Positions 16,550 through 20,255 of a stretch of DNA of 41,561 bases are shown here, piece after piece. Within the stretch, counting starts at the first letter, position 1, and every line of letters starts with the position of its first letter. This stretch comes from Actinomycetota bacterium (GTDB lineage: Bacteria; Actinomycetota; Actinomycetes; S36-B12). The notes under the pieces are model-generated. The model saw only the letters and a list, made by a program, of their open reading frames with translations. It had not been told where the DNA came from and searched no databases. The position numbers were made by a program, and so were the translations under genes. The stretch spans positions 1 to 41,561 of the forward strand of contig JAQCEO010000012.1 in NCBI GenBank assembly GCA_027729805.1, written 5' to 3'.

Positions 16550-17110
16550 GTGGCAAGCACGAATGATCTAAAAAACGGGCTGGTCTTGAATATCGATGGC
16601 CAATTGTGGACGGTGGTCGAATTCCAGCATGTGAAGCCTGGCAAAGGTCCGGCGTTTGTCCGCACCAAACTCAAGAGCGTTCTTTCCGGCAAAGTCGTCG
16701 AAAAAACTTTCAACGCCGGAATCAAGGTCGAGACTGCAAATGTCGATCGACGCGACATGCAGTATCTCTACCGTGATGGCGATGACTGGGTATTCATGGA
16801 CGTAGCAAATTATGAGCAGATCACCGTGCCCAACGCCGTAGTTGGTGAATCTTCCAAATACCTACTCGAAAACCAGGTCGCAAACATCTCGATTCATGAG
16901 GAAACCGCAATCATTGTTGAACTACCGGCATCGGTTGAACTGATGCTCACTTATACCGAGCCTGGCCTGCAGGGGGATCGCTCAACAGGTGGCACCAAGC
17001 CGGCGACTTTGGAAACGGGTGCGGTCATTCAGGTACCCCTTTTCCTTGAGTCGGACACCAAGGTAAAAGTCGACACCCGTGATGGCTCATATCTTGGCCG
17101 TGTGAACTAG
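16550..17110 (+). CDS. efp: Elongation factor P
   Basis: Relieves ribosome stalling at polyproline runs. The 186 residues form three beta-barrel domains; the loop that reaches the peptidyl-transferase centre is PGKGP with Lys32 at the tip. The PGKGP form is the one described for EF-P that works without lysylation, rhamnosylation or pentanolylation in Actinobacteria, and no modifying enzyme (epmA, earP, ymfI) is in the window. The C-terminal signature SYLGRVN-like end ([12 protein letters not shown]) is present. GTG 16550 is preceded by GGGAG at about 10 bases. Confidence 0.96.
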
Positions 17111-19509: not shown

Positions 19510-19583
19510 TGCCCCGGGTGAGATTTGAACTCACACTGGACCGAGTTTGAGTCGGCTCCCTCTGCCGGTTGGGGTACCGGGGC
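19510..19583 (-). tRNA. tRNA-Leu (anticodon CAA) with short variable loop
   Basis: A 74-base cloverleaf on the minus strand. Acceptor stem: 7 of 7 pairs (GCCCCGG with CCGGGGC) and discriminator A73. D-arm: 3-base CCC/GGG stem with a GG-containing loop (AACCGGCAGA), like leucine tRNAs. Anticodon arm: 5-base stem GCCGA/TCGGT (one G-U pair) with loop CTCAAAC, giving anticodon CAA, U33 and A37. Variable loop: CCAGT, only 5 bases. T-arm: GTGAG/CTCAC with loop TTCAAAT. CCA is not encoded. The anticodon specifies Leu (UUG), but bacterial tRNA-Leu normally has a long type II variable arm. It is complete and has no mismatches outside the D-stem edge, so a pseudogene is unlikely. Confidence 0.85.
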
Positions 19584-19637: not shown

Positions 19638-19643
19638 TTGACT

Positions 19644-20255
19644 ATGACCAAAGCTGCCGCGCACGTGCAACCCCGCACCGTGGTGGTGGCCGAAGACGAA
19701 GCACTTATTCGGATGGACCTAGTCGAGATGCTCGGTGAGCTCGGTTATCAGGTGGTTGGTCAAGCCGGGGATGGGGAGCAGGCGGTGGTCCTGGCCCGTG
19801 ACCTGCGGCCGGATGTCGTTTTCTTGGATGTAGCTATGCCGATCCGTGATGGGTTAAGTGCGGCGCAGGAGATTGTCGCCGCTGGGTTAGCACCGGTAGT
19901 CATGGTGACCGCGTTCAGCCAGTCCGAGGTGGTTGCCAAGGCCGCCGCTGCGGGGGCACTTGGCTACCTGGTCAAACCTTTTAGCGCAAGGGATCTCACT
20001 CCGGCAATTGAGCTGGCGGTAGCTCGGTGGATGCAATTACAAGAACTGGTGGCTCAAGTCGAAAACCTACAGGAGCGGGTGGCCGCCCGCGAGATGGTCG
20101 ACCGGGCGAAAACCCGACTGCAAAGTGATCTCGGCCTGACCGAAGCCGCCGCATTCACTTGGCTTCGGCAGCAAGCGATGGACGCTCGGGTGACCCTGGC
20201 GGAGGTGGCGGCCCGGGTTCTTGATGGTAGAAAACCCACTAACTTAGATGCCTAG
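19644..20255 (+). CDS. pdtaR: ANTAR-domain response regulator (PdtaR-like)
   Basis: A phosphorylation-controlled RNA-binding antiterminator of 203 residues. The receiver domain (about 11-125) has the acidic pair in VAEDEALIR, phosphoacceptor Asp62 in VFLDVAMP, Thr89 and Lys111 in YLVKPFS. A coiled-coil linker (QLQELVAQVENLQERV) leads to the C-terminal ANTAR helices (VDRAKTRLQSDLGLTEAAAFTWLRQQAM). In mycobacteria PdtaR is controlled by the kinase PdtaS and binds twin-hairpin RNA; no kinase gene is nearby. Its place next to a branched-chain amino acid transporter and polA is typical of Actinobacteria. Confidence 0.92.
   Translation: MTKAAAHVQPRTVVVAEDEALIRMDLVEMLGELGYQVVGQAGDGEQAVVLARDLRPDVVFLDVAMPIRDGLSAAQEIVAAGLAPVVMVTAFSQSEVVAKAAAAGALGYLVKPFSARDLTPAIELAVARWMQLQELVAQVENLQERVAAREMVDRAKTRLQSDLGLTEAAAFTWLRQQAMDARVTLAEVAARVLDGRKPTNLDA

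Follow-up and report, generated by a model that had tools for sequence, protein, structure and literature searches.

A long side arm is a textbook feature of every bacterial leucine tRNA. The gene at positions 19510..19583 on the minus strand of the window (the whole stretch of 41,561 nucleotides analysed here) raises the question of what is encoded by a bacterial tRNA gene that combines the leucine anticodon CAA with a type I, or short, variable loop. Comparison of sequences indicates that it very probably encodes a LeuRS-charged decoder of UUG, ordinary in function and unusual in shape, since its family swaps with a long-armed version of the same tRNA at one chromosomal spot.

ARAGORN and Rfam RF00005 both call a single tRNA at this position, the latter at 51.5 bits against a gathering score of 29, and it scores 100.9 bits with the family model R1, whose training set includes the window tRNA itself. 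Its sequence is 5'-GCCCCGG TA CCC CAACCGGCAGA GGG A GCCGA CTCAAAC TCGGT CCAGT GTGAG TTCAAAT CTCAC CCGGGGC A, with no encoded CCA. The initial annotation, which lacked the minus-strand placement, had described the cloverleaf correctly: pairing is complete in the acceptor stem (7/7), the anticodon stem (5/5, one G-U) and the T-stem (5/5), and the discriminator is A73 (19510..19510). The loops are conserved. Its anticodon and five-base variable loop are likewise reproduced by both programs, with CAA (positions 34-36) at 19547..19549 in the loop CTCAAAC, and CCAGT at 19535..19539, the last base of which, U48, forms the Levitt pair with A15 in the RF00005 alignment. The D-loop, noted earlier as Leu-like, belongs to a 17-nt D-arm (19558..19574) with a 3-bp stem, C13, A14, A15, G18 G19 and A22; its pattern, [3 bp]-N13-A14-A15-YY-G18G19-Y-A-G-A22-[3 bp], has the layout of the long tRNA-Leu(GAG) of the same genome. 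The variable loop falls short of the arm of at least 10 nt that marks a class II tRNA, and the 7/5 acceptor and T-stems differ from the 8/4 or 9/3 arrangement of allo-tRNAs.

The predicted RNA fold is better than that of shuffled sequences (z -2.4). In an alignment of 20 orthologues and paralogues, base pairing is kept in 99.3% of cells, and both sides have changed in 13 of the 20 pairs, a level matched by 0 of 500 shuffles and exceeding all slid controls, which marks the cloverleaf as genuine and under selection. On conservation and covariation together, a pseudogene was rejected.

The features through which bacterial LeuRS recognises its substrates are retained. In E. coli these determinants are A73, A15-U48, G18G19, A20a and contacts between the D- and T-loops, while U8:A14 is given as a determinant for Aquifex; in E. 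coli, tRNA-Leu variants that lack both the anticodon arm and the long arm are reported to remain active, and the long arm is stated to be dispensable for leucylation there (PMC9976931). The window tRNA has U8/A14, A15-U48, G18G19, A20a and the D/T-loop contacts. Across 131 distinct short sequences, A73, G18G19 and T54 T55 C56 are present in all, and U8 and A14 in 129, the two exceptions resembling parses shifted by one leading base. The 15-48 pair is A-U in 120 of these sequences and G-C in 10, and the variable loop has 5 nt in 129 and 6 nt in 2. In forty long sequences A73, A14 and A15-U48 are likewise present, as is a 13-22 mismatch in nearly all; among the sequences seen, the short form has A9 and C13 where the long form has G9 and G13.

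One LeuRS is encoded per genome; the enzyme has intact HMGH and MSKS motifs together with an editing domain and a C-terminal domain, and the leuS gene of the host genome lies at 1453-3945 of L274. Given the retained determinants and the single intact enzyme, charging by LeuRS is the economical reading. The leucine-specific insert before MSKSR is absent from the LeuRS of the host order, Kineococcus and Actinomadura, and is retained in that of Streptomyces, Mycobacterium, Amycolatopsis and Nocardia whatever the shape of their Leu(CAA). Adaptation of LeuRS by loss of this insert was therefore rejected as the cause of short tRNAs, the insert having no link to arm length.

The host genome is a 2.03-Mb draft in 92 contigs, 96% complete, with 47 tRNA hits, among them a Phe-like fragment and a partial hit, Gly(TCC), where a contig ends. 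Its own leucine tRNAs, as called by ARAGORN, are a long Leu(UAG), two long Leu(GAG), a short Leu(UAA) and the short Leu(CAA). The short tRNA-Leu(UAA) (C19:5402-5475; L041, L097) scores 94.7 bits with the family model, and both UUR decoders found are thus class I in shape. None of the tRNAs called in this 96%-complete draft is a UUR decoder with a long arm. The initial annotation had proposed looking for a second, long-armed tRNA-Leu(CAA) elsewhere in the genome, and none was found by a pattern search that can miss unusual T-loops. Also missing from the draft is tRNA-Leu(CAG), so a long UUR tRNA could likewise sit in a gap between the 92 contigs, though relatives show the same pattern. CUG is the commonest leucine codon in the window genes, yet no Leu(CAG) was found; its gene may lie in a gap between contigs, or Leu(UAG) may read CUG.

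In 14 window genes, UUG accounts for 106 and UUA for 35 of 532 leucine codons (UUR 26.5%), so that a substantial part of leucine decoding would fall to the short tRNAs. The meaning of these codons was examined in five genes, at alignment columns where the host genome has the given codon, excluding UUR codons of the other genomes. Leucine is the majority residue of the other genomes at 37/44 UUG columns and at 120/158 CUN columns, and its mean frequency is 0.80 at UUG columns against 0.69 at CUN columns. By this comparison UUG is evidently leucine in the host genome, and codon reassignment is rejected. For UUA, leucine is in the majority at 9/15 columns, a small sample; a first test had placed UUA at Ile-like columns, a hint that proved to be a small-sample effect once polA was added. 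The leucine anticodon, A73, the LeuRS determinants and the codon meaning all fit a leucine isoacceptor.

The neighbourhood of the gene provides a synteny anchor. A PdtaR-like ANTAR response regulator is encoded divergently at 19638..20255 on the plus strand (likely ATG at 19644), and its orthologue adjoins the tRNA in most relatives. The opposite flank contains the elongation factor P gene (16550..17110, plus strand), which is also near the tRNA in many relatives and is given here as context only, together with a NusB-like gene and an alpha/beta-hydrolase-like protein; these names were assigned by reading the translations. The tRNA/pdtaR pair is conserved across the host order. A scan of named genomes by pdtaR alignment returned 80 actinobacterial loci, and tRNA-Leu(CAA) adjoins pdtaR in 79 of them. 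Candidatus Nanopelagicales is among the nearest named relatives, which makes this order the most likely origin of the window. A contig labelled Bifidobacterium breve (L143) also has a short tRNA-Leu(CAA) beside pdtaR; its branch is very long, and its label may be a binning error.

The tRNA at this locus is short in 49 and long in 30 of the 79 cases. On the pdtaR tree the two states require 21 changes, at least 7 of them forced by well-supported branches; since a tree built from one gene has little resolution among Streptomyces, 7 is the count to rely on and 21 leans to the high side. Short and long states intermix inside both Streptomyces and Nocardioides. Within genomes the two forms are mutually exclusive: of 18 named genomes, 14 have only a short and 4 only a long Leu(CAA), and none has both. 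Across 59 relatives in the host order, among the matches listed, 51 are short-only and 3 long-only (G047, G055 and G060), with no genome seen to have both. Streptomyces with a short Leu(CAA) have a long Leu(UAA), indicating that one LeuRS serves both shapes, and in Mycobacterium, Amycolatopsis and Nocardioides Leu(UAA) is short as well.

Comparison of a long locus (L104, 2276-2912) with a short one (L121) shows flanks that are 90-93% identical around an unrelated tRNA, leader and trailer, so the whole cassette was exchanged. The same holds between other close Streptomyces (L136, L140 and L141 against L119, L128 and L155), in which the cassettes are entirely different between matching flanks (80-93% identical over all pairs, including L104/L121). 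Such complete differences between close species mark the locus as a hotspot of tRNA cassette exchange. The short cassettes of Streptomyces (L119, L128, L155, L121, L137 and L152) have a small palindrome, e.g. CCTTCGTTTCGAAGG, directly before the 5' end of the tRNA and another like it, e.g. CCTTTGATTCCAAGG, directly after the 3' end; these are possibly processing hairpins or exchange sites. It is conceivable, if doubtful, that the pdtaR-side locus is an exchange site at which whole cassettes of the two shapes repeatedly replace one another, under selection for a change of shape by something that reads the variable arm, be it a toxin directed at tRNAs, a factor from phages or an integrase.

Other readings of the window gene have to be weighed against a LeuRS-charged UUG decoder. 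Its class I shape would fit charging by a non-Leu synthetase, with UUG reassigned or ambiguously read in this lineage, as the initial annotation had entertained, and in a simple comparison its core (U8 A9 ... C13) scores nearer to type I tRNAs such as Arg(ACG) and Lys(CTT) than to long Leu. This reading is extremely unlikely, given that leucine is at least as frequent at UUG columns as at CUN columns, that the D-arm, A73 and elbow match Leu, and that the same locus holds a long tRNA-Leu(CAA) in close relatives. The evidence, though indirect, strongly favours another option named in that annotation, a LeuRS that accepts a short-armed tRNA: the determinants are kept, UUG appears to mean leucine, there is one LeuRS per genome, and the two forms alternate at one locus.

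The gene might also be a decaying or silent copy, with UUG decoded by Leu(UAA), for which wobble to UUG is possible in principle, or by an unseen long Leu(CAA). The unencoded CCA would be compatible with this, as would a consensus scan that found no sigma-70 promoter or terminator near the gene, but a silent copy is very unlikely: all 74 nt are unchanged in 12 genomes that span several genera, the alignment shows compensatory changes, and in most genomes tested this is the sole Leu(CAA) found. A mainly regulatory tRNA, for example one tied to the divergent pdtaR or supplying tRNA-dependent biosynthesis, is hardly credible. The regulatory role suggested in the initial annotation finds nothing in its favour beyond the deep synteny with pdtaR, and a long tRNA-Leu(CAA) occupies the same place in many species; alternation of long and short forms in one place points to decoding as their common task and away from a function that depends on shape, and an Rfam scan of the window matched no family besides tRNA.

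The preferred reading is thus that of a functional elongator tRNA-Leu in which the long class II variable arm was lost or never present. The elbow and acceptor features read by bacterial LeuRS being retained, a single ordinary LeuRS would charge the short tRNA, which would then decode UUG as leucine; its expression and use by the ribosome we infer. The sister short tRNA-Leu(UAA) would decode UUA and possibly UUG, leaving CUN to the long-armed tRNA-Leu. Both are members of a short tRNA-Leu family of actinobacteria, with anticodons CAA, UAA and in some cases UAG, whose genes and those of the long form can probably replace one another beside pdtaR.

The spread of this family was searched with model R1 in a sample of 296 Actinomycetota genomes. 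The model separates short members at the pdtaR locus (at least 72 bits) from long Leu and other tRNAs (at most 57 bits). At E <= 1e-13 (~66 bits), a threshold of our own choosing that makes the figure a rough one, matches occur in 96/296 genomes and 61/193 genera of the phylum. Together with the 49 of 79 pdtaR loci, this bears out an impression, recorded in the initial annotation, that short CAA tRNAs occur in other Actinobacteria. The fetched matches have UAA, CAA and a few UAG anticodons, and the CAA and UAA genes of mycobacteria reach 88-96 bits. One fetched match, L273 (66.7 bits), is called Met(CAT); another, L224, resembles a short Leu(UAA), though ARAGORN calls it Phe(AAA). In Mycolicibacterium rhodesiae there is a second match to the 3' half of the short Leu(CAA) (G092:C19:51306; L180), perhaps a partial copy, in which ARAGORN finds no whole tRNA. 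Mycobacterium phage ET08 (L320, 601-944) carries three short tRNA-Leu genes, with anticodons CAG, GAG and CAA; its GAG and CAA genes have odd D-arms and low family-model scores. A search for one particular type I tRNA as the source of the short Leu form singled out no donor by similarity scores.

The long variable arm is commonly taken as defining bacterial tRNA-Leu, and the short family is present in about one third of the 296-genome sample of the phylum, including mycobacteria and Streptomyces. This suggests that both tRNA-Leu shapes are used by bacterial LeuRS and the ribosome. Annotation rules that call short Leu tRNAs isotype conflicts may be wrong in Actinomycetota. The repeated natural swaps at one locus also allow a direct test, in culturable species, of how much the arm matters.

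A 2023 review describes tRNA-Leu as long-armed everywhere except in animal mitochondria (PMC9976931), and the Actinomycetota genomes with short tRNA-Leu are a broad exception to this statement. No description of a short chromosomal tRNA-Leu family in bacteria was found in the open-licence literature, and one may exist elsewhere. The short form shares with canonical class II tRNA-Leu (E. coli; Streptomyces bldA type) the anticodon family, A73, U8/A14, the 15-48 Levitt pair, G18G19, the 3-bp D-stem with its 13-22 mismatch, the T-loop contacts and the codon meaning. It differs in a variable region of 5 nt rather than 13-17 and, in the sequences seen, in having C13 for G13 and A9 for G9. Animal mitochondrial tRNA-Leu(UUR) also has no long variable arm, is recognised through A73 and A14 (PMC9976931) and decodes UUR, but it is organellar, is served by a mitochondrial LeuRS and, in the human transcript, has an anticodon stem that is weak, whereas the cloverleaf of the bacterial short tRNA is stable and paired throughout, and its LeuRS would also serve long-armed tRNA-Leu. 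Nor is the window gene of mitochondrial origin, as its contig belongs to a 2.03-Mb actinobacterial genome with conserved actinobacterial synteny.

Mycobacterial and mycobacteriophage short tRNA-Leu genes are alike in combining Leu anticodons with a short variable loop. A cluster of mycobacterial tRNA genes contains one short Leu(TAG) that has been treated as an oddity (PMC6582537), and the chromosomal short family is absent from the passages found in that paper. Mycobacterial papers that name the long-loop tRNAs of tuberculosis imply, without comment, the short shape of the remainder. The mycobacterial toxin MenT3 prefers tRNA-Ser via its long variable loop (PMC11541572), and the shape of the arm could therefore decide which tRNAs such toxins hit. 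A further CAA-anticodon tRNA without a long arm differs from tRNA-Met by seven nucleotides and scores as tRNA-Met (PMC8450103), whereas the actinobacterial short tRNA retains the Leu D-arm and elbow.
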